NCBI GenBank assembly: GCA_017619835.1
Contig: JAFZRN010000039.1
Span: forward strand, 1-64,000
From: Eubacterium sp.
GTDB taxonomy: Bacteria > Bacillota > Clostridia > Lachnospirales > Lachnospiraceae
Direction: 5' to 3'
DNA: 64,000 nt
Part shown: in pieces, positions 2,821 through 17,681 of the stretch
How the letters are laid out: each line of letters opens with the position of its first letter
Position numbering within the stretch: the first letter of the stretch is position 1
Notes under the pieces: model-generated
The model's database searches: none
What the model was told of the DNA's origin: nothing
Seen by the model: only the letters and a program-made list of their open reading frames with translations
Position numbers and translations under genes: made by a program

Positions 2821-3825
2821 TTAGCAGATTCTCGGAAGAAGCTCTCCGCTTGGACGTGAAAGGAAGGTCTTGGCTCCTACTGCTGTAGTAAGGATGACTT
2901 TTCCTTTATTCTCCTCGGTAACTTCACCGATTACACATGCGCCCTCTGAATTAGGGCAGCTATGAAGTGCATCGAGAATCTTATCAGTCTCGGATGCGGG
3001 AGCGAAGATAACAAGTCTTCCTTCGCAGGCAAGATAAAGAGGCTCGAGTCCGAGCATGTTACATACGCCTCTTACTCCGTCCTGAACGGGGATGCTTGAT
3101 GCATCGAGATTTATTCCTACGCCGCTTTCTGCGGCAATTTCATACAGAACCGTACCGACGCCGCCTCGTGTGGCGTCTCTTATTACGTGCACATCCTTTG
3201 TGGCTTCGAAGATTTTCTCGACATTTTTGAAAAGAGGAGCGCAGTCACTTGTGATGTCAGCATCGATCTTGAAATCATTTCTGGCAAGAAGGATAGTGCA
3301 TCCGTGTCTTCCGATATCACCTGTAACGATTATCTTATCGCCCGGCTTTGCAAATGCGCCGGAAGTAGAAGCGCCTTCGATTATATGGCCGATTCCGGTC
3401 GTCGTGATGAAGATCTTATCAACCTGACCCCTGCCTGCAACCTTAGTATCGCCCGCAACGAGATTAACACCGGCTTCTCTTGCGGTCTTGCCCATAGCTT
3501 CGGCGATTTCTTCCAGCTTCGCAACAGGGAAGCCTTCTTCGATTACAAATGAGCAGGTCAGATATTCCGGCTTTGCACCCATACATGCGACGTCATTTAC
3601 AGTGCCGCAGATGGAGAGCTTTCCGATATTTCCGCCCGGGAACTCGTAGGGTGAAACGATGAAGCCGTCAGTCGACATTGCAATCTTTCCGGGCTCCATA
3701 TCGAGGACAGCAGCGTCATCGGCAGTAAGATACGGGTTATCAAAATGCTTCTTGAATATATTTCCTATAAGGTCGGAGGTCTGAACTCCTCCGGCTCCGT
3801 GTGCGAGTGTGATTACATCATTCAT
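2821..3825 (-). CDS. hypE: Hydrogenase maturation protein HypE (thiocyanate-forming dehydratase)
   Basis: This 334-residue PurM-fold protein has the ATP-binding start ITLAHGAGG, DDAAVLD, the STDGFIVSP segment, VAGDTKV, DATRGGVGT and the diagnostic C terminus PRIC. In known systems HypF carbamoylates that last cysteine and HypE dehydrates it to thiocyanate, the source of the CN ligands on iron. It is the last gene of the minus-strand operon, 5 bases after hypD. All key residues are present, so it should be functional. No [NiFe]-hydrogenase structural gene lies in the window. Confidence 0.96.
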   Translation of the reverse strand: MNDVITLAHGAGGVQTSDLIGNIFKKHFDNPYLTADDAAVLDMEPGKIAMSTDGFIVSPYEFPGGNIGKLSICGTVNDVACMGAKPEYLTCSFVIEEGFPVAKLEEIAEAMGKTAREAGVNLVAGDTKVAGRGQVDKIFITTTGIGHIIEGASTSGAFAKPGDKIIVTGDIGRHGCTILLARNDFKIDADITSDCAPLFKNVEKIFEATKDVHVIRDATRGGVGTVLYEIAAESGVGINLDASSIPVQDGVRGVCNMLGLEPLYLACEGRLVIFAPASETDKILDALHSCPNSEGACVIGEVTEENKGKVILTTAVGAKTFLSRPSGELLPRIC

Positions 3826-3830
3826 GGTAT

Positions 3831-4880
3831 TTACTCCTGATCATTATTGTAGGTATAGTAGGCTGCGCAGGCTCCTTCATCGGATACCATGCAGGCTCCG
3901 ACTGCGTGAAGCGGTGTGCAGACTTTGCCGAACATCGGACAGTCCGAAGGCTTGCATTTACCCTGGAGAACTTCTCCGCAGCGGCAGGCCGGATTGGGCT
4001 TTCCTTTGATTTCGGGAACTTCATGCTTGATCCTGGCGTCGAAATCCGCATATTCGGATCTTAGCTTCATTCCGGACATTTCGATCACTCCGAGACCGCG
4101 CCATTCGGTGTCGCAGAGCTCCATTACTTCATCCATAAGCTTCTGGGCCGGGATGTTTCCTTCGGGCTTTACGACTCTCGCATAACAGTTTTCAAAGAAG
4201 GGCTCGCCCTTCTGAAGGTTATCTATTGTTACGGCAAGTGCCGTCATGAGCTCATTTGCGGTAAAACCGGCTACAACGCCGGATACACCTTCTTCCTTAA
4301 GCTGTTCGCAGATCGCGGTCCCGGTTATCGCATTGACATGGCCTGGATAGAGAAATGCGTCCGCGCTGTTTTTAAGCTTTGCGTAGGCATTTGGCATGGT
4401 CTTGTTGGCAGTCAGGATCGAGAAGTTCGAAAGGCCGAGCTTCTTTGCTTTCTTGACGGCGAAACAGGATGACGGGGTAGTCGTCTCGAAACCGACCGAA
4501 AGAAAGACAACCTGAAGGTCGGGATTCTCCCTGGCAATCTCAACCGCATCGTCCGGTGAATAGACGGGACGGATGTCAGCACCCTCGGCTCTTGCTCCGG
4601 CGAGATTCATTTTCGTGCCGGGGACCTTGATAAGGTCGCCGAAGGTACATATGGTACATTTCTTTTCAAGGGCGAGGAAGATCGCTTCATCGATAAAGCC
4701 GATCGGCGTAACGCAGACCGGGCATCCGGGACCCGAGATAAGGTCGACGTCCTCGGGAAGGAGGCTCCTTATGCCGAGACGGAAGATCTCATGGGTATGG
4801 GTTCCGCAGACCTCCATGATGCGGAGCTTTCGGCCCTTGTAAGAACTTATTATATCTCTTGTATTTTCTATTATATTCAT
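3831..4880 (-). CDS. hypD: Hydrogenase maturation protein HypD (Fe(CN)2CO scaffold)
   Basis: This 349-residue protein carries the HypD signatures: CGTHTH near residue 25, GPGCPVCVTP (~51-60), and the C-terminal Cys cluster CRCGEVLQGKC, DCPMFGKVC and the GACMVSDEG segment, which holds a [4Fe-4S] cluster. HypD with HypC carries the iron that receives CO and two cyanides. It sits 23 bases downstream of hypC and 5 bases before hypE, in the order C-D-E found in Hyp operons. Nothing appears broken. Confidence 0.96.
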   Translation of the reverse strand: MNIIENTRDIISSYKGRKLRIMEVCGTHTHEIFRLGIRSLLPEDVDLISGPGCPVCVTPIGFIDEAIFLALEKKCTICTFGDLIKVPGTKMNLAGARAEGADIRPVYSPDDAVEIARENPDLQVVFLSVGFETTTPSSCFAVKKAKKLGLSNFSILTANKTMPNAYAKLKNSADAFLYPGHVNAITGTAICEQLKEEGVSGVVAGFTANELMTALAVTIDNLQKGEPFFENCYARVVKPEGNIPAQKLMDEVMELCDTEWRGLGVIEMSGMKLRSEYADFDARIKHEVPEIKGKPNPACRCGEVLQGKCKPSDCPMFGKVCTPLHAVGACMVSDEGACAAYYTYNNDQE

Positions 4881-4903
4881 GGTTTTTCTCCTGTGGTTAA
4901 GAG

Positions 4904-5116
4904 TTATCTGGCGTGACGGCTCATGACTGATTCGGATTCATCAACGTCGTCGCTTGTGATCTTTGCGATGGCAACACCTGCGTGGACCATTACATAGTCG
5001 CCGGGTTCAAGCTCTTCAAGAAGCTCTGCGCTGACGTCTCTTTTTGCTCCGCCGGCATCGATTATCGCCGTACCGTCCTTAACACTTACTACCTTTGCGG
5101 CAAGTCCTACACACAT
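4904..5116 (-). CDS. hypC: Hydrogenase maturation chaperone HypC
   Basis: This 70-residue protein begins MCVGLAAKV. The Cys2 right after the initiator Met is the iron/HypD ligand in HypC, so the ATG at 5116 is firmly set, with AGGAGGAAAT just upstream. VHAGVAIAKI contains the conserved His. The C terminus is acidic then basic (DDVDESESVMSRHAR). HypC normally escorts Fe(CN)2CO from HypD to the hydrogenase large subunit. With no large subunit here its client is unknown; a nitrogenase-like subunit of this operon is possible (inference). Confidence 0.94.
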   Translation of the reverse strand: MCVGLAAKVVSVKDGTAIIDAGGAKRDVSAELLEELEPGDYVMVHAGVAIAKITSDDVDESESVMSRHAR

Positions 5117-5129
5117 CTTTATTTCCTCC

Positions 5130-5927
5130 TTAAAACACACTTTTAAAAGTGGTGATATTATTTCCATCGGGTCTTCCGTAGATCGCAAAGCAGATCTCAT
5201 CGAAGAAGAAACCGTACTGTTCATCTATAATGACCTGTTTAAAGTAGTTTGCTACGTCCTCGGGGTCATTTCCGAAGGCACCGCAGCCCCATGCGCCGAG
5301 CACGAGATTCTTATAGCCGTACTTTGCGGCAGCTGCGAGCATGATCCTTATTCTTCTGACAAATGTTTCTCTTATAAGATCATTTCCGGCAAGAAGGGCA
5401 GCGCCGTACCTGTTGGGCGCGGGCACCGTTACAACTCCCATGACCTCGGGCTTTTCCAGAAGGTTGCAGGCTTCGTCCCTGAACACAGCTACGTTCGGGG
5501 AGATCAGCATGTAGTCGGATTCGACCCGGCTGGGATGGGTGTTGTTATATAAATACATTTTTGAAGCTTCCTTCGATGTGATGGAAGCGTAGAGGGTGCT
5601 GCAACTGCAGAGAGCCTCTTCCTGGGCATTTGCGCCGAGCCTGAAGCCGCCACCGGGGCTGTGGGCATTAGCGAAGTTCATGACCAGGGCATTTTCATAC
5701 TTACGGCCTGCCTGAAATGAGTCGGCATTGATGACCGATATATTGCAGAGCTTGTCCTGCTTTTTATCACTGAGGTCGGCATCGAGAAGAGCCTGTCCGT
5801 CCTCGGGACTGATGACGATGACCTCCTCAAGGTCGATATCGGGAAGGTCTACCTTTTCACCGTTATAGAGGTAGCTTCCTTCCTTTGTGATATTGATCGT
5901 TTCGTTAGCGATTGAGATATTATTCAT
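5130..5927 (-). CDS. Bacterial-type poly(ADP-ribose) glycohydrolase-like macrodomain protein (TIGR02452 family)
   Basis: About 265 residues from the ATG at 5927, which has CAGGAGAA upstream; a longer reading from 5972 would overlap hypF and lacks an RBS. It has the microbial PARG signatures: NFANAHSPGGGF (~84-95) followed by the catalytic-type QEE (~102-104), and GAWGCGAFGNDP further on. The N-terminal helical part is typical of TIGR02452. The family removes ADP-ribose from proteins. It sits between hypF (41 bases) and hypC (13 bases), inside a maturation operon, an unusual place for it. The two H proteins of the operon keep the Arg that is ADP-ribosylated in nitrogenase reductase, a plausible but unproven substrate. 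Confidence 0.87.
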   Translation of the reverse strand: MNNISIANETINITKEGSYLYNGEKVDLPDIDLEEVIVISPEDGQALLDADLSDKKQDKLCNISVINADSFQAGRKYENALVMNFANAHSPGGGFRLGANAQEEALCSCSTLYASITSKEASKMYLYNNTHPSRVESDYMLISPNVAVFRDEACNLLEKPEVMGVVTVPAPNRYGAALLAGNDLIRETFVRRIRIMLAAAAKYGYKNLVLGAWGCGAFGNDPEDVANYFKQVIIDEQYGFFFDEICFAIYGRPDGNNITTFKSVF

Positions 5928-5941
5928 ATTGTTCTCCTGAA

Positions 5942-5974
5942 ATGTGACAAATAGATCTGAACGGTTTGTCACAT
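5942..5974 (-). repeat. Inverted repeat at the hypF-PARG junction
   Basis: ATGTGACAAA (5942-5951) and TTTGTCACAT (5965-5974) are perfect 10-base inverted arms with a 13-base loop. They cover the hypF stop codon. There is no following T run on the minus strand, so it is not a classic terminator. It could be an mRNA processing or stabilising hairpin, or a regulator half-site pair. Confidence 0.6.
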
Positions 5975-8341
5975 GCTGAGTTTAGTGAGGCCGGCGAGGG
6001 CCTGGCCGACACAGATGCCGCCGTCATTTGGCGGGATCAGGCTGTGGCGCAGCACTTGAATGTTTTCCTTAACGAGAAGGTCTTCCGTAAGTCTTAGCAG
6101 AAGAGTGTTCTGGAAGACTCCGCCGCTTAAGGCGACGGTACGGATTCCGGTCTCGCTGCAGAGCCTCAGGCATGTCTCGTGGATGTATGCGGCAAGATCC
6201 GCGTGGAATCTATATGCAAGATATGCTCTGTCGGCTCCGTTTAAATATTCATCAGCGATGTTACGTACAAGGCTGTTTGTATCTTTTATAATTTCAAAGT
6301 CTGCATTCCCGGCTGAAGCGGGATCTTTCTTTGTTTCCCTGAGATATCTATCTGCTTCGAACATAAGTGAAGTTGCGGCTTCTCCTTCGAAAGTCGAGCT
6401 TCTTCTTATGCCGAGGATCGCACTGACTGAATCAAAGAGTCTTCCGGAACTGGTTGACATAATGCTGTTAACGCCGGTCCTGGCCATGTTTTTAAGCAGA
6501 CCATATTCCATGCTGTTACATATTCCGAGAGAGGTACAGATTTCTTCGGCACCACCATTCGATGTTGCAGCGGATTCACCTGCAGATTCGCCTGCAGATT
6601 CACCTGCGAAGTCACCGAGGATTGATGCTGCTATCCTCCAGCCTTCCCTTGATGAAAGGTCGCCTCCGCACTGGATGAACGGAGCTATATGGTCAATTCT
6701 CTCGAATCCGTCCAGCCTGCACTTTAGGAATTCTCCGCCCCAGATGGTCCCGTCGGTTCCGTAACCGGTTCCATCGAAGGAGACTCCGATCACTTCACTC
6801 AGATAATCATTTTCGGCCATGCAGGAAAGGATGTGTGCGTAGTGATGCTGAATCTTCATCACAGGCAGTCCAAGCGACTCTGCGACAGCAGTAGTATTAT
6901 ACTTCGGATGCAAGTCAGCGACAACCAGCGTGGGCCTTGCCTCCAAAAGGGTCTGCATTCTGTCGATCGACTGCTCGAGAGCATTTACGGTGCGGATGTC
7001 CTCCATGTCGCCGACGTAGGCGGATGGATAGATCAGCGAATCCTTCGCAACCGCAAATGTGTTCTTCAGCTCGCCGCCCACCGCAAGGACATGTCCCTTC
7101 GGGCTGAGCAGTTTCGCGGATGAACTGTCGGTACCGATCATGAACGGAAGAGGAGCGAAGCCTCTTGAACGGCGGATCATGTAGGGCTCACCCTGATAAT
7201 AGTCCATAACACTGTCGTCTGCACGGGTCCGGATGGTCCTGTTATTCGAGAGCACCAGGTCGGTGAAACCGGATATTTCTTCTATAGCATCTTCGTCGGT
7301 GCGGCAGATCGGGGCACCGGAAGCATTTGCGCTCGTCATTATCAGGCAGTCGGACACGGCCGTGTCGTCCTTATGATCAAAAAGCAGCATGTGGACCGGG
7401 GTGTACGGAAGCATGACGCCGACCTTGGGGTTGTCGGGCGCGACCGATTCGGCAAGCGTCGAGTCGGGATTCCTCCTGAGGAGGACGATGGGCTTCTGAT
7501 AGCCTGTCAGCTGCCGGTACATTTCCTGTGAATCTATATGACACTCCCTTTTAACAGTATCTATATCCTTCATCATGACAGCGAAGGGTTTCATGGGTCG
7601 GTTCTTGAGTGATCTCAGCCTTGCGACGGCATTTTCATTTGTCGCATCGCAGCAAAGGTGAAAGCCGCCGATTCCCTTGATCGCGCAGATTTTGCCCTCA
7701 TTTATCGCGTTTCTTGCTTTGGAAATGGCGTCGTGGCCGCGAACGTCCGTAGGAACAAGTCTGCCGCTCGCTTCATCTTTCTCAAGCAGATAAATCTCGG
7801 GGCCGCAGTCCGGACAGCAGACCGGCTGCGCATCGTAGCGCCGGGTCTCGGGGTGAGTATATTCATACTCGCACTCGGGGCACATCTTAAAATCCTTCAT
7901 GCTGGTGCGCTCCCTGTCGTAGGGCATGGAGTCGAGAATCGTAAGCCTCGGCCCGCAATTGGTGCAGTTTATGAAGGGATGAAGATAGCGCCTGTCCTTC
8001 GGATCATAGAGCTCCTTCTTGCATTTATCGCAAATGGCGATGTCGGGCGAAACGAAGATGTCGCCGATGTCCTTCTCGCTCTCGATTATCTCGAAGGAAT
8101 CAAACTCCGGAAGGTCGACAAGCTTAGTGATTATGTTCAGGATGTTCGATCTTTCGGGAGGATGGTACTTAAGCTCCGAAAGAAGGTTGCTGACATTCTC
8201 GCCCTGGGCAAATATCTCGACATAGGAACCCTTATTGGATACCGTGCCTTTTATGTTGTTTCTTAGACAAGTCCGGCTGACAAAGGGGCGGAAACCGACA
8301 CCCTGAACTATGCCGTAGACTCTGATGTTGGATGTAAGCAT
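5969..8341 (-). CDS. hypF: Carbamoyltransferase HypF
   Basis: 790 residues from ATG 8341 (AAAGGAG upstream). Domains in order: acylphosphatase (RVYGIVQGVGFRPF, residues ~7-20), two zinc-ribbon Cys pairs (CDKC...CTNC and CPEC...CPDC, ~105-185), a YrdC-like domain (KGIGGFHL..., RPMKPFAVM) and a Kae1/TobZ-like carbamoyltransferase domain (HHYAHILSCM, SFDGTGYGTDG, ALSGGVFQN). HypF uses carbamoyl phosphate and ATP to carbamoylate HypE. Near residues ~580-590 there is a Gly-Glu-Ser-Ala repeat encoded by a 12-base tandem repeat at ~6571-6616, an unusual insertion in the last domain. It starts 13 bases after the nitrogenase-like gene upstream. Confidence 0.95.
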   Translation of the reverse strand: MLTSNIRVYGIVQGVGFRPFVSRTCLRNNIKGTVSNKGSYVEIFAQGENVSNLLSELKYHPPERSNILNIITKLVDLPEFDSFEIIESEKDIGDIFVSPDIAICDKCKKELYDPKDRRYLHPFINCTNCGPRLTILDSMPYDRERTSMKDFKMCPECEYEYTHPETRRYDAQPVCCPDCGPEIYLLEKDEASGRLVPTDVRGHDAISKARNAINEGKICAIKGIGGFHLCCDATNENAVARLRSLKNRPMKPFAVMMKDIDTVKRECHIDSQEMYRQLTGYQKPIVLLRRNPDSTLAESVAPDNPKVGVMLPYTPVHMLLFDHKDDTAVSDCLIMTSANASGAPICRTDEDAIEEISGFTDLVLSNNRTIRTRADDSVMDYYQGEPYMIRRSRGFAPLPFMIGTDSSSAKLLSPKGHVLAVGGELKNTFAVAKDSLIYPSAYVGDMEDIRTVNALEQSIDRMQTLLEARPTLVVADLHPKYNTTAVAESLGLPVMKIQHHYAHILSCMAENDYLSEVIGVSFDGTGYGTDGTIWGGEFLKCRLDGFERIDHIAPFIQCGGDLSSREGWRIAASILGDFAGESAGESAGESAATSNGGAEEICTSLGICNSMEYGLLKNMARTGVNSIMSTSSGRLFDSVSAILGIRRSSTFEGEAATSLMFEADRYLRETKKDPASAGNADFEIIKDTNSLVRNIADEYLNGADRAYLAYRFHADLAAYIHETCLRLCSETGIRTVALSGGVFQNTLLLRLTEDLLVKENIQVLRHSLIPPNDGGICVGQALAGLTKLSM
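6571..6616. repeat. 12-base tandem repeat inside hypF
   Basis: About three to four copies of a unit like GATTCACCTGCA encode an (E-S-A-G)n tract in the HypF C-terminal domain. One of four such low-complexity expansions in this operon. Confidence 0.7.
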
Positions 8342-8354
8342 ACCCCGCTCCTTT

Positions 8355-9533
8355 CTAACGACCGGAGATTGCAAAGTGAGGGTAATCGACAAGAGTACCC
8401 TTATAGCCGGCGGCATTCAAGAGAAGCCTGATGTCTGCGTCGCCGATTATCATATCGTAGCTTCCGGAGGAAGCTAATTCGTAAAGGTCGTCTTCATCAT
8501 TTAGGTGGATGTCACCTGCCTCAACGTAGTCGGGGCTTTGCATAAAGAATGTAGCGCAGTCGATCTTAACGGAAATGTCTGACTCAGCTGCCACATTCTC
8601 AAGTTTCTGTCTCAGCTCATTTGCGGAGAACTGGGAGTGGAGGATGAGGATACTGCAAGTGTCGCCTGATCCGGCAGCATCGGATGAATTGCCGGCATCG
8701 GCTGCAAATCTTGTAAGTGCGGCTACGGACTCATCTACGACATTCTGAGGTATGAAGGGATAGCCGACTTCATACGGCACACCGAACTTACTCTTCAGGT
8801 ATTCGGCTGCCTTAAGAGCAGCAGGGCTTACCACGATATGCTTCTTCATGTCGGGTGCGTTTCTGATATCATCCAGGGTCGAGCCGAGAGAATATACGAC
8901 AACATTTTCCAGTGAACCCATAGCACTAAGCAGGGACTCCTTATCGATGTATCCTGTTTCGAGCGGAGTAGCACCGAGGATTCCTATCTTGTCGCCAGCC
9001 GCATCTTCAGCCGCATCTTCAGCCGCATCTTCAGTCGCATCTTCAGTCGCATCATTGTTGGAAGCTTTGTCGACTTCCTCTACAGATTTACCCGCAAACT
9101 CCTCGAAAAGCGAGAGCCATGCGGCTTCCTCACCCTCATCGTAGTAGGCGGTTCCGTCACAGTTTATTGTTATACATGGAATCCCGAGACTGTTCTCGCC
9201 CATCCTTTTAAGAGCCTTCATATCAGTCGCGATAACCGCGGGAACCGGAGTTCCGACGATCGCGCTGAAAGCACCGCCCAGCTGGTCGTGAGCAGTCTTC
9301 AGCTTAGCGATAAGCCTGTCATCACGTCCCATGATGGCGTCCATGTCTCTGAGTCCCGCACTGAATACGGCACTTTTTTTCGTGAACCATCGGGGCTCAT
9401 CGAAGCCGCAGATGTTACCGGCACAGCCGCCGGCGTCCGCAATGACGATCAGTCCGCCGAGTTCGTATAGTACTCCGCAGGCGCCTGACTGATCGGGCGC
9501 AAACGGAGAGAGATATCTGAGTAATTTTTTCAT
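8355..9533 (-). CDS. Nitrogenase component 1-like protein, K/N-type (trio B)
   Basis: 392 residues. The N terminus has the nitrogenase component-1 pattern: Cys19 in SGACGVLYELGG, Cys37 in DAGGCAGN, then EPRW, matching P-cluster-type ligand positions. It is clearly paralogous to the 395-residue product of 11575-12762: C19 and C37 align at identical spacing, both have G-x-(D/N)-E-P-R-W, and both end near P-H-x-A-x-S-G-R. The Cys93 of that paralogue is Val here, while an extra Cys42 is present. Residues ~160-180 contain an Asp/Ala/Glu repeat (12-base units, 8998-9051). Start ATG 9533 overlaps the upstream stop by one base. Presumed partner of the 423-residue protein in a heterotetramer. Substrate unknown. 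Confidence 0.8.
   Translation of the reverse strand: MKKLLRYLSPFAPDQSGACGVLYELGGLIVIADAGGCAGNICGFDEPRWFTKKSAVFSAGLRDMDAIMGRDDRLIAKLKTAHDQLGGAFSAIVGTPVPAVIATDMKALKRMGENSLGIPCITINCDGTAYYDEGEEAAWLSLFEEFAGKSVEEVDKASNNDATEDATEDAAEDAAEDAAGDKIGILGATPLETGYIDKESLLSAMGSLENVVVYSLGSTLDDIRNAPDMKKHIVVSPAALKAAEYLKSKFGVPYEVGYPFIPQNVVDESVAALTRFAADAGNSSDAAGSGDTCSILILHSQFSANELRQKLENVAAESDISVKIDCATFFMQSPDYVEAGDIHLNDEDDLYELASSGSYDMIIGDADIRLLLNAAGYKGTLVDYPHFAISGR
8998..9051. repeat. 12-base tandem repeat inside the trio B K-type gene
   Basis: About 4.5 copies of a unit GCATCTTCAGCC/GTC, encoding (E-D-A-A/T)n in the nitrogenase-like protein. Near-perfect copies suggest recent slippage expansion. Confidence 0.85.
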
Positions 9534-10804
9534 TATAATTCTTCCAAACGTTCAAAAAGTTTAATCACACCGTCGTAGCCGAATGGCTGCTCATCGTCGC
9601 ACCATTCGATGCCCGGCGTGGCGGGGTGGTAGTAGCTGCAGTCCGAGCCGATATACATGTCGACTGGCTCCTCCTCGTAGTACATCATCGTCGGCGAGAG
9701 GTTGGAGTAAACTAACGTGTCGGGGCTCAGCTCGGCCAGGCGTTTTAAAAATCTGAAATTCAGTTCGCCGATGGTGGCGAAAAGTTCCTTTACCTTAAAG
9801 CCTTCCTCGACAAGCATGAGAGCCATCTCAATCGGGTCGCCGTTCTGGATTTCTCCTACCGCAAATGTCACGGCCCCGCGACTCTCCTTAAACCCCTCTA
9901 TCGCCCGCCGCGCTTTCTCATAATACGGTCCGTCATCGAGCCCACTACCGAGCGCCTCCCCGAGAAGTCTGTACTGATTATGAATCTTATCAGTCCGGTA
10001 AAGTCTCAGCAGTTCAATGAAAGGTATCCCGAGCCTGTCCTGCAGACTCTGTGCAGCGGCCCTCGCCTCGGGGTTCAGGACAAGGTTGAAGTTTGCCCGT
10101 GACATTTCCTTATACTCATCAAAGGTCTTCAGCCGTCCGATCTCGCGGATGTTCTTGATTCCGATCGATTTCATCAGAGGATAGAGCTCGCAGCTATCAA
10201 AGAGCGGCGAAAAATATCCCATTATATTCATGTCCTGCGGAACCTTGTCGGCCTTCTCAAGCAGAGAATAAACGCTCGTCCTTACAGCGGCCATGGGCGG
10301 CAGCCTCTTCTCACGTGTCAGCGCATACATGTAGCATGCGACAGCCGGGATCCCGGTCCTCTCGGTCACCTTTTTGCAGACTCTCTCCATATCGGTCCCC
10401 AGCAGCGCATCGACGCAGGTGATACAGATCATGATCGCCGACGGCTTCTTATCAAGAACTTTAAGCATCTCCTCAGCTGCCTCGGGAATCTTCGTAAGGT
10501 GACGTCCGGTCACGATGTCCGTGTCATCCAGAAGCTGGAAGAAGAAGCGGTCCCTGTATTCGGGCATGCTCCTGAAAAGAGATGTGTTCCTTCCACAGCA
10601 TCCGGGCGATACGAGAAGCATCACGGATTCGGGCACTGCAAGGCCGGCTCTCTTAACACCGAAGCCCTTCGCACCGGGAGAGTTAAAGTAGAGAGTTGCC
10701 GGCGAGCTGTAGATCAGGTGGTCGGAGCTCTTCATTTCCGATGGGAGAGTGGCAGGCGTAAGCTCTGCCAGTTCTTTAGTTGTCATACAAAATGCTTTAT
10801 TCAT
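9533..10804 (-). CDS. Nitrogenase component 1-like protein, D/E-type (trio B)
   Basis: This 423-residue nitrogenase/oxidoreductase component-1 family protein has Cys69-Cys70 in VSPGCCGRN, equivalent to the Gly-Cys ligand. C127 and C130 lie in ICITCVDALLGTD, equivalent to the Thr-Cys...IG-D motif of NifD/K and BchN. The C-terminal PFGYDGVIKLFERLEEL resembles the NifD/NifE tail (GYDG-F-A-I-F). Two or three Cys here plus C19/C37 of its neighbour could ligate one interface [4Fe-4S] cluster as in BchNB or CfbD. The FeMo-cofactor Cys/His ligands are not recognisable. It starts 2 bases after the H gene's stop with a poor RBS, suggesting translational coupling. Enzyme substrate unknown. Confidence 0.82.
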   Translation of the reverse strand: MNKAFCMTTKELAELTPATLPSEMKSSDHLIYSSPATLYFNSPGAKGFGVKRAGLAVPESVMLLVSPGCCGRNTSLFRSMPEYRDRFFFQLLDDTDIVTGRHLTKIPEAAEEMLKVLDKKPSAIMICITCVDALLGTDMERVCKKVTERTGIPAVACYMYALTREKRLPPMAAVRTSVYSLLEKADKVPQDMNIMGYFSPLFDSCELYPLMKSIGIKNIREIGRLKTFDEYKEMSRANFNLVLNPEARAAAQSLQDRLGIPFIELLRLYRTDKIHNQYRLLGEALGSGLDDGPYYEKARRAIEGFKESRGAVTFAVGEIQNGDPIEMALMLVEEGFKVKELFATIGELNFRFLKRLAELSPDTLVYSNLSPTMMYYEEEPVDMYIGSDCSYYHPATPGIEWCDDEQPFGYDGVIKLFERLEEL

Positions 10805-10806
10805 AG

Positions 10807-11562
10807 TTATTTATCTTCATCAATCAGGAGCTGCGCGAGGTCGAGGAAACGGCGGCTTACTTCAAGCGTCGGGTCGCCCTCGATCACAGTCTTACCCATG
10901 TCTTCGTAGTGGATTATATCGTTTGTCCTCGGTATGTCGGCGATTATCTCAAGTCCGCTCTTCTCGGCGAAGGCGCGGACCTTTTCCTCCTCGCCCTCGA
11001 CATTTCGGCGGTTCATTACGATGCCGCGCACCTTGGCATAGCTTCTGTCTTCAAAATTCTTCACTGCGGTGTTAATGTTGTTTGCAGCGTAGAGCGCCAT
11101 TTTCTCACCTGACGTAACGATCAGGATCTTGTCGGCATAACCCTCTCGGATCGGCGCCGCAAATCCCCCGCACACAACATCTCCCAGCACGTCATACAGC
11201 ACGGCGTCGGGCTTATATTTCTTGTAAAGCTCGAGCTCCTCGAGAAGCGAGAACGTGGTGATGATCCCGCGGCCCGCGCATCCGAGTCCCGGCGTCGGTC
11301 CGCCCGTCTCGATGCAGACAACCCCGCCGAAGCCCTCCTTCGTGATCTGGTCGAGCGAGGTCGGCTCCTCATCGGTCTCGCGCATATAATTCATGACCGG
11401 CATGACCGGCTCCCCATTCAGAAGGTTCGCGGTCGAATCGGCCTTGGGGTCGCAGCCAATCTGAATAACCTTTTTCCCGAGCGAGGCAAGCGCAGCGGCA
11501 AGGTTCGAAGTAACGGTCGATTTGCCGATGCCGCCTTTCCCGTAAACAGCAACTTTTATCAT
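10807..11562 (-). CDS. Nitrogenase reductase-like Fe protein (NifH/CfbC/BchL family), trio B
   Basis: 251 residues. P-loop GKGGIGKST (8-16), CDPKADST (37-44), Cys95 in GLGCAGRG and Cys131 in DVVCGG: all residues required for an ATPase homodimer bridging a [4Fe-4S] cluster. Arg98 in CAGRG is the position modified by DraT in NifH. The protein is shorter than NifH (about 280-295) and lacks its C-terminal extension, like other nitrogenase-like reductases. RBS AAAGGAAA precedes the ATG at 11562. It should donate electrons to the 423/392 pair immediately downstream. Confidence 0.92.
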
Positions 11563-11574
11563 GATCTTTCCTTT

Positions 11575-12762
11575 CTATATCTCAAAAATCGAAGTATGTT
11601 CCCTGCTAAAGCATCTTCCGGAGAACGCATCGTGCGGCCTCCTCACAAAGCTTTTTCCATGGCAAATGGCTTCGAACAGCGGATCAGCCACAACCACTTC
11701 TGATTTACCGATTTCCTTCTCGAGCATGTCTTCATCGTCGCACGATATGTCCCACTCGGAACTGAGCTGGCTGAGGTCGCCTTCGCCTACACTTTCAAGA
11801 ACTCTTGAAGCGATGCCCTTATCAAGTGAAAGAGCAGCGGCGAGAGAAGTGGAGAGAACGCTTTCTCCAACGATCGCGGTTTCATTTCCGTAAAGCCTGC
11901 AGTCTGCGGCTGAATCAATAGAGCGTCTTTCTGCAGCGGCAGTCTTAAGGTCTTCGATAACTTTATCGGCGAATTTCTTCCCATAAGGAACTCCGACAAC
12001 AAATGGAATATCGAATCTTTCAAGAAGAGATTCGGCAAGCGGACGTCCGCTCGATGCAACGACAAGACTTACATCAGCTTCGGAAAGCCGGCGCACCTCA
12101 TCAAGCGAAGTGCCCATTCCGATGCAGGCATTAACTGTAAGCCCATTACTTTCGAGCCATGACTTGATCTCGTTTTCCGTTCCCAGTGGGAAGTCAAGCG
12201 GGGTCATGCCGAGGATGTTAACCTTGAGCGGCTTACCGGATTCATTAACTTCACCGGCTCCGGCTACTCCGTCCGGCCCGCTAGCTTCCGGCCCAACAGC
12301 TTCCGCCCCAACAGCTTCCTCCGTAAATCTCTCCGAAAGCTTCAGGAACGCGTCGGCAGCGCCCTGAATATAGCTCTGCATTCCGTTGGTCCTGACATTA
12401 AAGCTTGGGATACCTGTGCGGCTCTCAACCTCGTAAGCAATCGCCTCCATGTCGATCCCGATCATCGCCGGCATCGGGGATGCGCATATCGCGATGAAAG
12501 CAGGATGAAGCTGCTCTGCAGTCGTGACGAGGTCGCTTATAAACTTTTCATCGTTTCCCATTACGGCGTCATTTTCGGTAAGACCGGAAATGTACATCAT
12601 GCTTTCGTTCTCGTACCAGCGCGGCTCGTCGTGAGTCGTGTATGTCGAGTTGCAGCCGGATGCATCGTGGATCACGGTCATCCCGCCGTATTCATATAGC
12701 GCCGAGCAGAAACCCGAGGTGTCTGCGGCATATATTGAAATTCTTCTTGCAGTCTGATTCAT
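11575..12762 (-). CDS. Nitrogenase component 1-like protein, K/N-type (trio A)
   Basis: 395 residues from ATG 12762, which overlaps the upstream stop by ATGA; a longer reading from 12783 lies wholly inside the upstream gene. Cys19 (SGFCSALYEYGG), Cys37 (DASGCNSTY) and Cys93 (AICASPMPAMIGID) fall at nitrogenase component-1 ligand positions. EPRW follows, and the C terminus has R-P-H-D-A-F-S-G-R. Paralogue of the 392-residue product downstream. A Glu/Ala/Gly/Pro-rich stretch near residues 150-170 is coded by ~15-base repeats (12281-12318). Likely pairs with the 458-residue protein. Function unknown. Confidence 0.8.
   Translation of the reverse strand: MNQTARRISIYAADTSGFCSALYEYGGMTVIHDASGCNSTYTTHDEPRWYENESMMYISGLTENDAVMGNDEKFISDLVTTAEQLHPAFIAICASPMPAMIGIDMEAIAYEVESRTGIPSFNVRTNGMQSYIQGAADAFLKLSERFTEEAVGAEAVGPEASGPDGVAGAGEVNESGKPLKVNILGMTPLDFPLGTENEIKSWLESNGLTVNACIGMGTSLDEVRRLSEADVSLVVASSGRPLAESLLERFDIPFVVGVPYGKKFADKVIEDLKTAAAERRSIDSAADCRLYGNETAIVGESVLSTSLAAALSLDKGIASRVLESVGEGDLSQLSSEWDISCDDEDMLEKEIGKSEVVVADPLFEAICHGKSFVRRPHDAFSGRCFSREHTSIFEI
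12281..12318. repeat. 15-base tandem repeat inside the trio A K-type gene
   Basis: About 2.5 copies of a unit CTTCCG(G/C)CCCAACAG encode an E-A-V-G-A/P tract in the 395-residue nitrogenase-like protein. Confidence 0.7.
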
Positions 12763-14135
12763 AGGCAGCTTTCGCACCCCCATCCCTTGTGACTGATGGT
12801 CTTCTTTGTATCCTTCGGGTTCTCCCGGGCGTCGATCATGAGTTCGGCAAGACGGCTTATCGCCTGGTAGCCCCAGGTTCCGCCGCCCTCGACGATGTCG
12901 ACGAAGTGCGTGGTCGCCGTGAAGTAAGCTGCTTTCTGACCGATGGCAAGAAACTCGCCTTCGTCCGAATCGCTGCCCGTAGCAGAACCACCCGCAGCAC
13001 CCGCAGCGCCCGCTGCAAACCTCATCGCAGGGTCGATCGTCGGATAAACCTTGATATCCGGACGCACCTCCTTAAGCCTTTCGAAGCATTCGCCTTCGTC
13101 CTTTGGAAATGAGTCGCTGTATATACGTTCAACATGGAAATCATTTGCCGTAAGGAGCTCGGCGAGTTCGAGTATATAAGGATACGCAGTGTAATCTATT
13201 GCAATCGGAGTATCGCCTACTATCGCGCGCGCCTTCTTAAGGTCAGCATAGGCTTTGCTCCTTGACTCTTCTATAAACTTATCGACAGCCCCGCCGTCCA
13301 GCCCGAGCTTTGCGCCGAGCTCTTTAAGTGCGGAGTCGATCCTTGACTCATTAAAATAAATCGGAAGCTTCAGCCACTCGAGGTTAAGCCTCCTTGTAAG
13401 CTGCTTTGCGGAAGTATCTGCCACCGAGAGAGTGGAGATAGCAAGCGGTGCGGCGCCGAGCTTAAGATATTCGTCGTAGGTGTCGCAGTCGGCGATATCC
13501 CAGATACGTCTTCCGGACAGCCTGATAAGCTGCGCGATGTCGGAAGCTTTATCAAAGGGAAGGTTGCTTCCGATAAGAGCGACCAGGTCGTTTTTCTTGG
13601 GAAGCTCCTTCACGGGCTCGTAGAGACTTATCTTCATCATGCTGTCGGGCGACATGGTCTTACGCATGGTCGGGATCATGTAGCACTCGACAAAATCGAT
13701 GTCGGGGAACATCTCTGAAAGCTCGTCGGTTATCATCTTAAAGTCGCAGCCCTCGAACATATGCATGCAGCTGAGATAGATGAGTACGCAGCGAGGCTTT
13801 ACTTCGAGCTGCTCCACGATATGGCGCGTTCCTTCGATGACGCGGCTCTCCATCTCGCCGTTCCACATATCCTCTTCTCTGAGGGCAACCCATGACATTC
13901 GTTCCATCGCATTCATTTCCGCTGCGGTGAGCACTACGCCTCGAAGGCATCCCTGTGCGCAGACATAGACCTGGTTGGACTCCGGGATAAGCATTCCCGT
14001 GTGAACGATGTTCCAGACGCCCCTTGCGGCCGCATTATAGGTAAGCCCCTCGTAGAAAGGATTCTCAAAATCCATTTCGGCGAGTGTGATCGGCTCGGGT
14101 ATTCTGTTTTCGAAAGTATTTAATGCTTTGATCAT
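12759..14135 (-). CDS. Nitrogenase component 1-like protein, D/E-type (trio A)
   Basis: 458 residues. Cys59 and Cys63 in VYVCAQGCLRG and Cys123 in LIYLSCMHMFEGCD align with the Gly-Cys and Thr-Cys...G-D ligand motifs of nitrogenase component 1. C116 and C130 are additional. Residues ~364-380 are an Ala/Gly/Ser tract (9-base repeats). The end of the protein has GGTWGYQAISRLAELM, like the NifD GYDG tail, then a unique C-terminal extension finishing GWGCESCL, a C-x-x-C absent from the trio B counterpart. It begins 33 bases after the H gene and overlaps the next gene by 4 bases. Catalytic role unknown. Confidence 0.82.
   Translation of the reverse strand: MIKALNTFENRIPEPITLAEMDFENPFYEGLTYNAAARGVWNIVHTGMLIPESNQVYVCAQGCLRGVVLTAAEMNAMERMSWVALREEDMWNGEMESRVIEGTRHIVEQLEVKPRCVLIYLSCMHMFEGCDFKMITDELSEMFPDIDFVECYMIPTMRKTMSPDSMMKISLYEPVKELPKKNDLVALIGSNLPFDKASDIAQLIRLSGRRIWDIADCDTYDEYLKLGAAPLAISTLSVADTSAKQLTRRLNLEWLKLPIYFNESRIDSALKELGAKLGLDGGAVDKFIEESRSKAYADLKKARAIVGDTPIAIDYTAYPYILELAELLTANDFHVERIYSDSFPKDEGECFERLKEVRPDIKVYPTIDPAMRFAAGAAGAAGGSATGSDSDEGEFLAIGQKAAYFTATTHFVDIVEGGGTWGYQAISRLAELMIDARENPKDTKKTISHKGWGCESCL
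12991..13017. repeat. 9-base tandem repeat inside the trio A D-type gene
   Basis: Three copies of CCCGCAGCA/G (last CCCGCTGCA), encoding (G-A-A)n in the 458-residue protein. Confidence 0.65.
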
Positions 14136-14168
14136 AGGATTTATCCGTTTATTTTTCCTGGTTGCCGG

Positions 14169-14909
14169 TTACTCTGTCACCCTGTCAGCGAGTGCGAGAA
14201 GCTTTTCAGCGACATCGCTATCGGGGAAGAGGTCGACAACGGTCTTGCTTTCGGCCTCCGCTTTCTCGAAAAGGGAGCTTCTCGGTATCGTTGCAACGAC
14301 GTCTGTCTCGAAATCCTTCGCGAGCGCGAAAGCATTTTCCTCTTCATTATCAACTCCGCGGCAGTTAAGGATGATGCCGCCAAGCTTCGCATAGTCACGC
14401 TTGCGGAAGTTGTTAACGGCCATCGCGATATTTGCGGCAGCGTAGATCGACATCTTCTCGCCGGAGGTTACGATGTAGACCTCGTCGGCATAGCCCTTAC
14501 GCATCGGCATCGTGAAGCCGCCGCAGACAACGTCGCCGAGGACGTCGTAGATTATTACGTCGGGCTTGTAGAAGTCGTAAGCACCCTTGGTCTCGAGAGC
14601 CTCGAGCGCATTGATGATGCCGCGCCCCGCACAGCCGAGTCCCGGAACCGGGCCGCCGGCCTCGACGCAGAGAACGCCCGACTCACTTTCCTTAACCATG
14701 TCCTGCAGGGTAAATGGCTTCCCGCTTCTTACGAGCTCAAGCACCGTCGTGATCTTCTCCTTGGGGCAGAGCAGTGAAGTGGAGTCCGCTTTCGGGTCGC
14801 AGCCTATCTGCATAACCGTGAGTCCGCGCTTTGCGAGCGCTGAGCTTAAGTTGGAGGAAAGGGTGGATTTTCCGATTCCGCCTTTTCCGTAGATTGCTAT
14901 CTTTTTCAT
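14169..14909 (-). CDS. Nitrogenase reductase-like Fe protein (NifH/CfbC/BchL family), trio A
   Basis: 246 residues from ATG 14909. P-loop GKGGIGKST (8-16), CDPKADST (37-44), Cys93 in GLGCAGRG with Arg96, Cys129 in DVVCGG. This is the complete set for an ATP-driven [4Fe-4S] reductase. It is strongly similar to the trio B H protein, so the H-D-K set was probably duplicated as a block. The start is 1 base past the hydE stop and its RBS (AAAGGAAAATGA) lies inside hydE, so translation is coupled. Likely partner of the 458/395 pair. Confidence 0.92.
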   Translation of the reverse strand: MKKIAIYGKGGIGKSTLSSNLSSALAKRGLTVMQIGCDPKADSTSLLCPKEKITTVLELVRSGKPFTLQDMVKESESGVLCVEAGGPVPGLGCAGRGIINALEALETKGAYDFYKPDVIIYDVLGDVVCGGFTMPMRKGYADEVYIVTSGEKMSIYAAANIAMAVNNFRKRDYAKLGGIILNCRGVDNEEENAFALAKDFETDVVATIPRSSLFEKAEAESKTVVDLFPDSDVAEKLLALADRVTE

Positions 14910-14910
14910 A

Positions 14911-15963
14911 TCATTTTCCTTTATAGTCGCCGCGTGAAATGACGACGTTATATCCAATCGCTTCCATCCTCTTTTCGATGCAGCCTCTGCACTCCGAAGA
15001 AGATTCTCCGGTGCAGATCTTGTTATCGTAGAGCATGTACTTGTCTCTTGTCTTGACGGGAGAGAGGTTCGGCATGATGACATTTGCACCTGCCAGGACT
15101 CCCTGCTCACGGCCGTCGGGCTTGATGGTACCGAGTGCGGTGGTCGCCGGAAGAAGCACGTTTGGCAGCATGAGTCGGCACAGACTTATCAGAAAGAGTG
15201 TCAGCTCATAGGAACCCTTGGGCTCATCCTTAAACGGAGTATCGGAGTGCGGAAGGAAGGGGCCGAGCCCGATCATTTCCGGCTTAAAATCTCCCATAAA
15301 TATCATGTCGTCCACAATGCAGTCGGTGGTCTGGTAGGGCGAACCTATCATGATGCCGCAGCCGGTCTGGAAACCGAGGCTCTTAAGGTCATGCAGACAT
15401 CTGATGCGGTTGTCCCAGGACATTTCCTCGGGATGAAGCCTCTCGTAGTGAGGCTTGCTTGCGGTCTCGTGACGAAGGAGATATCTGTCGGCACCGGCCT
15501 CGCGGTACGCCTTATACTCCTCGTAGTTTTTCTCTCCGATGGAAAGAGTCACTGCCGTATCCGGATAAGCCTTCTTGATCCGGCGGACAATCCTGCATAT
15601 CGTGTCGGTGTCGTAGGTAAGATCCTCGCCGCTCTGCAGAACGAAGGTCCTGAAGCCGTAGCTGTAGCCGCTCTCGCAGCATTCGAAGATCTCGTCCTCG
15701 GTCAGTCTGTAACGCTCTAATCTATCATTTCCGGCGCGGAGCCCGCAGTAGTAGCAGTTGTTCCTGCATATGTTCGAGAACTCCACGATGCCGCGGATGA
15801 AGATATCCTTGCCGTACACCCTGTCCGTAACCTCACGCGCAAGAGACGCAGCATAAAGCCTGTCCTCCTCTGTGTAAGTATCCAGCAGTGTGTACCACTC
15901 ATCCCTTGTGAGCTCATGCGTCCCCGCCAGCTTATCAATTATCATTTTATTATTCTGATTCAT
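14911..15963 (-). CDS. hydE: [FeFe]-hydrogenase maturase HydE (radical SAM)
   Basis: 350 residues. The radical SAM motif CRNNCYYC (C66, C70, C73) is in HydE context (VEFSNICRNN). The C-terminal second-cluster cysteines C317, C325 and C328 lie in ICTGESSSECRGC, followed by the EAIGY segment typical of HydE. RHETASKPHYERLHP and IMIGSPYQT are also HydE-like. HydE acts on an Fe-CO-CN-cysteine synthon on the way to the H-cluster. Here it is directly followed by the nitrogenase-like genes. BioB and PylB belong to the same superfamily, but the C-terminal Cys motif and hydF linkage favour HydE. Confidence 0.92.
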   Translation of the reverse strand: MNQNNKMIIDKLAGTHELTRDEWYTLLDTYTEEDRLYAASLAREVTDRVYGKDIFIRGIVEFSNICRNNCYYCGLRAGNDRLERYRLTEDEIFECCESGYSYGFRTFVLQSGEDLTYDTDTICRIVRRIKKAYPDTAVTLSIGEKNYEEYKAYREAGADRYLLRHETASKPHYERLHPEEMSWDNRIRCLHDLKSLGFQTGCGIMIGSPYQTTDCIVDDMIFMGDFKPEMIGLGPFLPHSDTPFKDEPKGSYELTLFLISLCRLMLPNVLLPATTALGTIKPDGREQGVLAGANVIMPNLSPVKTRDKYMLYDNKICTGESSSECRGCIEKRMEAIGYNVVISRGDYKGK

Positions 15964-15971
15964 ATCAATTC

Positions 15972-16028
15972 CTCAAAATGTAACACTTTTGTAATGGGGC
16001 CTGGCCCCATTACGAAAGTGTTACATTT
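15972..16028. repeat. 27-bp near-perfect inverted repeat between hydF and hydE
   Basis: The left arm runs from AAAATGTAACAC to TAATGGGGCC and the right arm from GGCCCCATTACG to GTGTTACATTTT, around a single T. Only one pair is non-Watson-Crick (G-T). It covers the last codons of hydF and most of the gap to hydE. It resembles the GGGGCC...GGCCCC palindromic REP-like or MITE-like elements scattered in Clostridia. On RNA it would form a very stable hairpin without a T run, and might separate hydF expression from hydE and the genes after it. Confidence 0.85.
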
Positions 16029-17277
16029 TATATTTCTCCAGCAGATCGGGGAAGACTTCGATGCTTCGTTCGAGTATTCCCTTCATGTATGCGATGGCAA
16101 CGCCGTAGTTCGTGAACGGTACTCCTGCGTCCTCGGCGCATTTCATACGGTAAATGAGTTCGCGAGAGCTGAGCATGCATCCGCCACAGTGGATGATCAG
16201 ACTGTAATCCTCGGGATTATCCGGAAAGTCCGCGCCGGAGGTTGCTGTTATCTCAAGGTCTTTTCCGGTACGCTCTTTCAGCAATCTCGGAAGCTTTACG
16301 GTTCCGATATCCCCACACTGTCTGTGGTGCGTGCAGCCTTCACTGATAAGAACCTTGTCACCATCCTTAAGTTTATCTATTGCTTTGGCTCCCATGACCG
16401 CAGTCTCGAGAAAGCCTTTATATCTAGCCATAAGAATTGAGAAGGAAGTCAGCTTTATATCAGCCGGAGTATCCTTACTTACCTGACCGAAGGCCTGGCT
16501 GTCCGTGATGACAAGATCCGGCTTCGGAGCCATCTTATCCAGAAGCTCCTTAAGTTCGGTCTCTCTTGTGGTTACGGCATAGGCACCGCTTTCAAGGATA
16601 TCTCTTATAGCCTGCTGCTGAGGCAGGATAAGACGTCCCTTCGGAGCGGACTCATCTATGGGGATGACCAGAACGACAGTCTGCCCCGGACTTATCACAT
16701 CTCCCACAAGTCTTACTTCGGGTCCGTTTGAAGGATTAAGGCTTCCAATCTTTTCCTTAAGCTCGTGGACATGATAACCGGTCAGCGCACTTACGTAGAT
16801 AGTATTTGCGTCCGGAACGCTTCCGTCAGCGACGTCATTCCCTTCCGTCCCGTCACCAACATTCTTATCTGTTCCGACACCCAGAAGATCGCACTTATTC
16901 CTTACAACGATATAAGGAATATCCTTCGCTTTAAAAAGTCCGATCAGCTCCTGCTCATATTCGCTGTCTTCAGCTGTCGCATCAGTAACCAGCACCGCGA
17001 TATCTGTCTTATTAAGGATCTGGCGCGTCCTCTTAACGCGGAGCTCGCCGAGAGAGCCTTCGTCATCGAAGCCCGGAGTATCTGTGATAAGCACCGGCCC
17101 GAGCGGAAGAAGCTCCATGGCCTTTACCACGGGATCGGTTGTCGTTCCGAGAGTATCGGAGACTACGGATATCTCCTGATTGGTTATTACATTTACCAGG
17201 CTGGACTTGCCGGCATTTCGCCTTCCGAAGAAGCTGATGCGGAGTCTTTCGCCCGATGGGGTGTCATTTAAACTCAT
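16021..17277 (-). CDS. hydF: [FeFe]-hydrogenase maturation GTPase HydF
   Basis: 418 residues. G1 FFGRRNAGKSS (~17-25), switch/G3 DTPGF (~60), G4 NKCD, then a dimerisation domain and a C-terminal [4Fe-4S] domain with CTHHRQCGD and, about 45 residues later, HCGGC, the C-x-H...H-C-x-x-C pattern of HydF. HydF is the scaffold that carries the 2Fe subcluster to HydA. It is the first gene of the minus-strand run. GAGGAGAAT precedes the ATG and a regulatory leader lies upstream. No hydG or hydA is present. Confidence 0.94.
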   Translation of the reverse strand: MSLNDTPSGERLRISFFGRRNAGKSSLVNVITNQEISVVSDTLGTTTDPVVKAMELLPLGPVLITDTPGFDDEGSLGELRVKRTRQILNKTDIAVLVTDATAEDSEYEQELIGLFKAKDIPYIVVRNKCDLLGVGTDKNVGDGTEGNDVADGSVPDANTIYVSALTGYHVHELKEKIGSLNPSNGPEVRLVGDVISPGQTVVLVIPIDESAPKGRLILPQQQAIRDILESGAYAVTTRETELKELLDKMAPKPDLVITDSQAFGQVSKDTPADIKLTSFSILMARYKGFLETAVMGAKAIDKLKDGDKVLISEGCTHHRQCGDIGTVKLPRLLKERTGKDLEITATSGADFPDNPEDYSLIIHCGGCMLSSRELIYRMKCAEDAGVPFTNYGVAIAYMKGILERSIEVFPDLLEKYKM

Positions 17278-17432: not shown

Positions 17433-17681
17433 CTAATCTTCGGGAGAATAAACAGTTTTTGTTGTAACTCCTTCAATTCTTCCTATTTTTCCGGCAAGCG
17501 TATTGATAATATCCTGGGATGCATCGATCGCGATGCTGATTATGTTGATATTTTTCTTCTGATAAGGGATTCCCATTCTGCCGATGATATAGTCGCTATA
17601 TTCATGCAGAACCGTATTGATCTCATTTGCGGACTCGGTCCTCTTAACTATGATTGCGATGATCGCTGCACGTGTGTCCAT
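17433..17681 (-). CDS. Iron-only hydrogenase system regulator (TM1266 family)
   Basis: This is an 82-residue, single-domain protein with an ACT/NikR-like beta-alpha-beta pattern: RAAIIAIIVKR at the start, then a G-R-M-G-I-P-Y motif around residue 34 and NIISIAIDAS. These are typical of the putative regulator found next to hydE/F/G in Clostridia and Thermotoga. It probably senses a small ligand or metal; no DNA-binding motif is obvious. RBS GGAGGTT precedes the ATG at 17681. It is co-oriented with hydF but separated from it by its own terminator/leader region. Confidence 0.85.
   Translation of the reverse strand: MDTRAAIIAIIVKRTESANEINTVLHEYSDYIIGRMGIPYQKKNINIISIAIDASQDIINTLAGKIGRIEGVTTKTVYSPED

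Follow-up and report, generated by a model that had tools for sequence, protein, structure and literature searches.

The window analysed here, a 64,000-nucleotide stretch from the draft genome of a Eubacterium sp. of the Lachnospiraceae (GenBank assembly GCA_017619835.1, contig JAFZRN010000039.1, positions 1 to 64,000), carries a cluster of 14 minus-strand genes that, judged from comparative sequence analysis, probably encodes a route to the two-iron part of the [FeFe]-hydrogenase H-cluster that does not depend on HydG. In transcription order the genes are TM1266, hydF, hydE, H1, D1, K1, H2, D2, K2, hypF, PARG, hypC, hypD and hypE, where H1-D1-K1 and H2-D2-K2 are two nitrogenase-like (NFL) sets, hereafter NFL-1 and NFL-2. 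The known road to the H-cluster runs through HydE, HydF and HydG with CO and CN taken from tyrosine, and in it HydG supplies Fe, CO and CN by making the Fe(CO)2(CN) unit. It is quite likely that HydG is bypassed by the present cluster, a proposal supported by strong comparative genomics across three phyla: HydA is present, and HydG not found, in every strong-D1 genome checked for both (50 genomes with D1 loci and 11 genomes of a phylum sample), which makes the H-cluster the likely product. H2-producing gut and rumen bacteria, including two strains of Ruminococcus albus, appear to do without HydG.

HydA without HydG in genomes encoding D1

The marker used for the HydG-less system was D1, the catalytic subunit of NFL-1 (12759..14135, minus strand), which matches PF00148 (Oxidored_nitro) at 50 bits and retains C59, C63 and C123 in 86/86 alignment rows. 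A profile built from 25 D1 proteins was scanned over GTDB species genomes and returned at least 512 stretches coding for relatives, the best 80 of which were retained as loci; these belong to Lachnospiraceae, Ruminococcus (R. albus AR67 and KH2T6, R. bicirculans 80/3), Clostridiaceae, Lentisphaeria/Victivallales and one member of the Spirochaetaceae. The searches for HydG and HydA covered 50 of these 80 genomes, mostly drafts, which were hand-picked for long flanks and variety. HydG above the cut-off was found in none of the 50 (0/12 and 0/38), and HydA above the cut-off in all of them. Matches to the HydG model below threshold occurred in all 50 genomes; those of 175-228 bits were considered as HydG candidates and rejected, two of the strongest having been tested and both being ThiH above the ThiH cut-off. 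The Cys residues of the three H-cluster motifs of HydA are intact in 31/31 loci (the window's genome and 30 others), with IPC instead of MPC in the second motif of eight. Both R. albus genomes, AR67 and KH2T6 (G002, G003), encode D1, gave no HydG and have four PF02906 matches apiece. According to PMC6288185 and PMC5626996, R. albus is an H2 producer with an isolated and characterised electron-bifurcating HydABC; that biochemistry comes from a strain other than the two searched here.

The window's own genome, a draft of 2.75 Mb in 44 contigs, follows this pattern. A preliminary description of the cluster had stated that no hydrogenase structural gene is present, which is correct for the window, where no PF02906 or PF00374 gene was found, but not for the genome: one [FeFe]-hydrogenase of 603-607 amino acids lies on a different contig with the three H-cluster motifs present, downstream of a NuoF-like open reading frame (ORF) recognised by eye. 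HydG was not found in this draft, the sole match to its model being HydE itself (70 bits; cut-off 312), nor was a [NiFe] large subunit found in it.

A second sample comprised 398 genomes of the same phylum, each at least 90% complete, which include the window's own and may overlap the locus sample; thresholds were E <= 1e-40 for the D1 profile, E <= 1e-80 for HydG and E <= 1e-60 for HydA. D1 was detected in 18 of the 398 genomes, HydG in 226 (225 above the cut-off) and HydA in 307. The D1 scores split into 11 genomes at 413-745 bits, the window's among them, and seven at 283 bits or less. All 11 strong-D1 genomes have HydA, all 11 have HydE and in none was HydG found; among HydA-positive genomes the ratio of HydG-positive to HydG-negative was therefore 0 to 11 with strong D1 and 221 to 75 without (Fisher 5e-7). 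HydE was searched in 80 HydA-positive, HydG-negative genomes (69 of those 75 plus the 11 with strong D1) and was found in 15, namely the 11 strong-D1 genomes and four others (G443, G444, G227 and G315). HydA without HydG thus mostly occurs where HydE was not found either, whereas D1 goes with HydE; D1 against HydG gave a Fisher value of 4e-16 when the 226 HydG-positive genomes were assumed to be HydE-positive.

The preliminary description had left the cofactor unknown or had suggested its delivery to a nitrogenase-like enzyme, and neither proposal is borne out, the HydA-positive, HydG-negative pattern in all strong-D1 genomes pointing to the H-cluster instead. That the product is some unknown cyanide/CO-iron cofactor other than the H-cluster, with a nitrogenase-like or different enzyme as client, is in our estimation improbable: two full H-D-K sets could hold one client and one maturase, and a sequence search of the PDB gave nothing for D1, but HydE and HydF belong to H-cluster synthesis, and such a product would leave unexplained why HydA is present and HydG absent in all strong-D1 genomes tested. 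The HydE of these systems also looks ordinary. Comparison of 54 HydE rows from D1 loci and genomes with 15 from HydG-positive genomes (G443, G444, G227 and G315 left out) gave 77 columns conserved in both and no fixed difference, so that HydE at D1 loci probably receives the same substrate as HydE in HydG-positive genomes.

Recurrent gene order and position of NFL-1

The order of the cluster is common to Bacillota, Lentisphaerota and Spirochaetota and recurs in relatives of other families, and is thus not due to chance; an accidental neighbourhood was rejected on this ground. The same recurrence upholds the earlier proposal that the Hyp genes, HydE/HydF and both nitrogenase-like sets belong to a single conserved pathway suited to an Fe/CN/CO cofactor, for which conservation of gene order had been named as the check; the contrary outcome, in which the parts always stand beside ordinary hydrogenases, was not seen. 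Across the 80 loci, many of them truncated at the end of a contig, Hyp genes occur at 53, NFL-2 at 65, HydE at 53, HydF at 36 and TM1266 at 59. NFL-1 often lies beside HydE and/or HydF and NFL-2 beside HypF-C-D-E, and the modules are separate in two genomes, G341 (loci L150 and L176) and G449, the genome of L072 (L072 and L177). Unusually long D2 ORFs of ~790-875 codons, likely D2-K2 fusions, were noted at L149 (15190-17817), L153 (1481-3988) and L176 (4536-6908), and a single H gene stands in the stretch for two NFLs in L149 and L153.

The relation to the HydEFG system is visible in the gene order as well. Eight of 20 regions from HydG-positive genomes have the order TM1266-hydE-hydG-hydF, and in L049 and L152 it is NFL-1 that lies between hydE and hydF, at the position of hydG; the full order in L152 is TM1266-permease-ATPase-hydE-H1-D1-K1-periplasmic binding protein-hydF. 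The cluster thus shares with HydEFG maturation HydE, HydF and TM1266 above their cut-offs, a HydA client in the genome and, at these two loci, the hydG position of NFL-1, and differs from it in that HydG is not found and that Hyp genes with two NFLs, or NFL-1 with an importer, are there instead. An aspartase-like ORF (AspA, by eye) was seen near hydG in L185, L187 and L191, in line with the ammonia-lyases that the summary of PMC11736057 places in H-cluster synthesis.

An enzyme elsewhere in the genome, so far unrecognised, might replace HydG, with the Hyp and nitrogenase-like genes merely co-regulated with hydE and hydF. G443 and G444 lend this some weight: in both, HydA and HydE were found but HydG and a strong D1 were not, which implies either a further route or missing data. 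The position of NFL-1 in L049 and L152 argues the other way, as do the association of D1 with HydG absence in both samples and the clustering of D1 with hydE, hydF or both across several phyla, and we regard such a hidden replacement as a rather poor prospect.

A variant with an importer

Eight loci (L049, L058, L061, L067, L076, L146, L151 and L152) combine NFL-1 with a periplasmic-binding-protein/FecCD/ABC importer, and Hyp and NFL-2 genes are not present at any of them; across the 80 loci, Hyp genes and importer never occur together. HydA was found in 8/8 of the importer genomes and HydG in 0/8, and HypD was not found in seven of the eight, the eighth (G338) having a [NiFe]-type HypD only. 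Four of the five importer ATPases tested carry a C-terminal TM1266 domain (L152, 12225-13292; L058, 1203-2258; L146, 12269-13321; L151, 13768-14907; absent from L049), a fusion that ties the importer to hydrogenase. Iron complexes, haem and cobalamin are the cargo of FecCD-type importers, and the nearest NCBIfam models of the present importer include iron-complex, haem and cobalamin kinds, so that a metal complex is the natural guess for what is imported.

Relation to [NiFe] hydrogenases

A [NiFe] large subunit was found in 9/62 D1 genomes and not found in 53/62, the other co-occurrence, besides hydG in 0/50 D1-locus genomes, that the preliminary description had proposed to examine; of the two, the question about hydG proved decisive. 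Six of these nine genomes (G341, G183, G256, G034, G043 and G045) have a second HypD or HypE set elsewhere, 39-50% identical to that of the window, near Ech or [NiFe] genes and in most cases close to ORFs that resemble HypA or HypB by eye; operon-type HypD, by comparison, is 61-90% identical to the window's HypD. G338 and G426 yielded a [NiFe]-type Hyp set and no other, and G050 has a weak [NiFe]-family match and a single HypD.

It would be very surprising if the Hyp genes of the cluster served an ordinary [NiFe] hydrogenase from an accidental neighbourhood. HypCDEF is complete with its conserved Cys kept, and to this extent the cluster resembles HypABCDEF maturation; yet no HypA or HypB is among the window's 14 genes as scanned for protein families, the large subunit is usually missing, the Hyp genes are linked to H2-D2-K2, and in the six genomes named above the operon-type set is distinct from a separate [NiFe]-type set. 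With no [NiFe] large subunit found in the window's genome or in 53/62 D1 genomes, an ordinary [NiFe] maturation locus was rejected.

Phylogeny and fold of the D proteins

In a tree of 80 D proteins, a set to which Mar, Isr, Nfa and Cfb sequences do not belong, the D1 proteins of both the Hyp and the importer variant form one clade of 42 rows with 100/100 support and a long stem, and the D2 proteins form their own clade of 33 rows (100/100); several branches are long, which makes fine placement unsure. The importer label does not fall in a single clade, with five changes over the tree (one of the labels, that of L066, was assigned because its genome lacks HypD; no binding protein or permease was found on its 9-kb contig, and it is not counted among the eight loci). 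Five other NFLs (L155-L159, from four HydG-positive genomes and the HydG-negative G366 of L157) fall outside both clades. The nearest outsiders of the D1 clade, L155, L156 and L157, also have an importer, a hint that NFL-1 arose by recruitment of an NFL supplied by an importer. Outside the two clades, H-D-K sets accompanied by FecCD-type importers lie at L155 (7393-14674), L156 (8357-14561) and L159 (3834-10340), all HydG-positive, and in L157 (6827-13629), which is HydG-negative.

The existence of such sets raises the alternative that NFL-1 is itself a substrate-using reductase of the methylthio-alkane or isethionate reductase type, fed by an importer and unrelated to hydrogenase. Mar and Isr are classed as Group IV NFLs in PMC11423573, which counts in favour, as do the related H-D-K sets with binding protein, permease and ATPase in the HydG-positive genomes of L155, L156 and L159 and the lack of a TM1266 domain in the ATPase adjoining the outside NFL of L155. 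These three NFLs lie outside the D1 clade, whereas inside it four of five importer ATPases carry the TM1266 domain and HydE or HydF adjoins at several such loci; we consider a reductase of this kind highly unlikely. With the Group IV NFLs (CfbCD, MarHDK, IsrHDK, NfaHDK) the present systems share the H-D-K architecture, the NifH cluster Cys and the component 1 fold, and they differ in tree placement: within the set analysed, D1 and D2 each have a separate clade, and the comparison with the Group IV enzymes themselves is one of fold.

AlphaFold2 models of D1 and D2 have the fold of nitrogenase component 1, and the D2 model matches nitrogenase, NifEN and MarDK chains. Among the matches shown, TM-scores of ~0.5-0.7 are alike for NifEN, NifDK and MarDK, and for DPOR in the case of D1 only, which gives no choice among them, and the solved relatives listed for D1 and D2 are 10-20% identical. 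Conserved Cys would allow an interface cluster; the predicted monomers give no pocket or substrate. The best NCBIfam model for D2 is NifE, far under its cut-off, and in PDB NifE is second to a nitrogenase alpha chain. D2, K2 and K1 are far under the NCBIfam cut-offs for NifD/NifK equivalogs, and D1 has no NCBIfam match at all. NifEN, the scaffold of the FeMo-cofactor, is likewise a nitrogenase-like protein that builds a metal cofactor, with the differences that no nifB is among the 14 genes in the family scans and that the predicted client here is the H-cluster.

Proposed pathway

In the proposed HydG-independent pathway, HypF and HypE would form cyanide from carbamoyl phosphate and HypCD would hold the resulting Fe-CN fragment. 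NFL-2, whose genes adjoin hypF, may then contribute CO, adding or generating it in an ATP-driven reduction; reduction of CO2 to CO is within the reach of nitrogenases, and that reaction is our guess for NFL-2. NFL-1, whose genes are often found with hydE and hydF, would convert the synthon to the Fe(CN)(CO)2 unit otherwise made by HydG, after which HydE and HydF would finish as in the known pathway. At loci without Hyp genes and NFL-2, the FecCD-type importer would bring in an iron complex from outside. The order of these steps is put forward tentatively, and the chemistry assigned to each NFL is more doubtful still. It is conceivable, though we would not favour it in full, that this constitutes a second natural H-cluster route in which cyanide comes from HypCDEF and carbonyls come via two nitrogenase-like reductases, and that some species live on an iron-carbonyl-cyanide synthon obtained from neighbours through a dedicated importer; an organometallic hydrogenase intermediate would then be a shared commodity in gut communities.

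Several observations weigh against this pathway. HypCD is known for Fe(CN)2(CO) and not for Fe(CN)(CO)2. The absence of NFL-2 in the importer variant was judged at the locus. The absence of HydG is read from genomes that are mostly drafts, the window's own being 93% complete. The division into strong and weak D1 was set after the score gap between 413 and 283 bits had been noticed, and six of the seven weak-D1 genomes are HydG-positive and one HydG-negative; five of the seven are placed outside the D1 clade in the tree and two are unplaced. A further 75 HydA-positive genomes have neither HydG nor strong D1, one of them, G366, with a weak D1 match, and in 65 of the 80 HydA-positive, HydG-negative genomes searched no HydE above the cut-off was found, so that a PF02906 gene alone is no proof of a live enzyme. 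Lastly, HydA and HydE occur in G443, G444, G227 and G315, although HydG and a strong D1 were found in none of the four; the first two are 99-100% complete, the others 93%, with 360 contigs for G227 and 290 for G315.

Many PF02906 proteins seem to be without a maturation system, as in the 65 genomes just mentioned, and PMC9147875 describes heliobacteria with hydA and without hydEFG. G443 has HydE with TM1266 and HydF (L144, 8044-10541) and G444 has HydE (L145, 9357-10403); HydG, HypD and strong D1 were not found in either.

As to earlier work, the derivation of CO and CN from tyrosine by HydG is described in the summary of PMC3105041. Titles and abstract starts among the papers listed from the open-access literature gave no report that joins HydE or HydF with nitrogenase-like or Hyp genes and none of H-cluster synthesis free of HydG, although either may be in print elsewhere, and passages of PMC12578642 have nothing on maturases. 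If the proposed pathway is true, it would unite both hydrogenase maturation systems, give nitrogenase-like enzymes a role in organometallic synthesis and provide a new part list for making hydrogenases, and hydG would be a poor marker of active [FeFe]-hydrogenase in gut data.

Genes of the cluster

The run of 13 same-strand genes with gaps of about -4 to 57 bases that had been described from hydF to hypE was confirmed by family scans, which gave family matches for all 13 genes from HydF (17277) to HypE (2821) on the minus strand, with intergenic gaps of -4 to 57 bases when likely start codons are used; we picked the likeliest start codons for K1, HypF and HypC. The description was one gene short. 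The scans added a 14th gene, 155 bases upstream of hydF, that encodes a TM1266-family protein (17433..17681; NCBIfam: iron-only hydrogenase system putative regulator; TIGR03959 at 110 bits, cut-off 60.8, and PF21699), found at 59/80 related loci as given above.

Downstream of it, HydF, the H-cluster scaffold GTPase (16021..17277), scores 547 bits against TIGR03918 and has C315-x-H317 and H363-C364-x2-C367 invariant in 41 rows, and HydE, the radical SAM H-cluster maturase (14911..15963), scores 553 bits against TIGR03956 with C66, C70 and C73 invariant in 58 rows and has HydE structures as its best PDB matches by sequence (315 bits). The NifH-like ATP-dependent reductases of the two NFLs are H1 (14169..14909; PF00142, Fer4_NifH, 289 bits; C93 and C129 invariant in 77 rows) and H2 (10807..11562; PF00142, 299 bits; C95 and C131 invariant in 73 rows). 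These residues are the NifH cluster pair in H1 and H2, the radical-SAM triplet in HydE and the CxH..HCxxC site in HydF. The second catalytic subunit of NFL-1 is K1 (11575..12783, its start probably some codons downstream of 12783; PF00148, 115.5 bits; C44 invariant in 84 rows), and NFL-2 comprises, besides H2, the catalytic subunit D2 (9533..10804; PF00148, 96 bits) and the second catalytic subunit K2 (8355..9533; PF00148, 64 bits; C37 invariant and C42 at 98% in 56 rows).

HypD is the scaffold for the Fe-CN-CO fragment and HypE the dehydratase that gives cyanide. In the window, HypF, the carbamoyltransferase for cyanide from carbamoyl phosphate (5969..8416, its start probably at ~8341), scores 737 bits against TIGR00143 and has the HypF domains in Pfam. 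The chaperone HypC (4904..5116, starting at MCVG, residue 37 of the mechanical ORF) scores 77 bits against PF01455 and 57 bits against TIGR00074 with C2 invariant in 70 rows; HypD (3831..4880) scores 410 bits against TIGR00075 with C25, C53 and C56 invariant in 72 rows (CGTH, GPGCPVC); and HypE (2821..3825) scores 425 bits against TIGR02124 and ends in PRIC, the terminal Cys being present in 97% of 64 rows. Between hypF and hypC lies a gene for a PARG/TIGR02452 macrodomain protein (5130..5972; TIGR02452, 182 bits), which was rejected as a pathway gene, being present at 3/80 loci only, and is a passenger.

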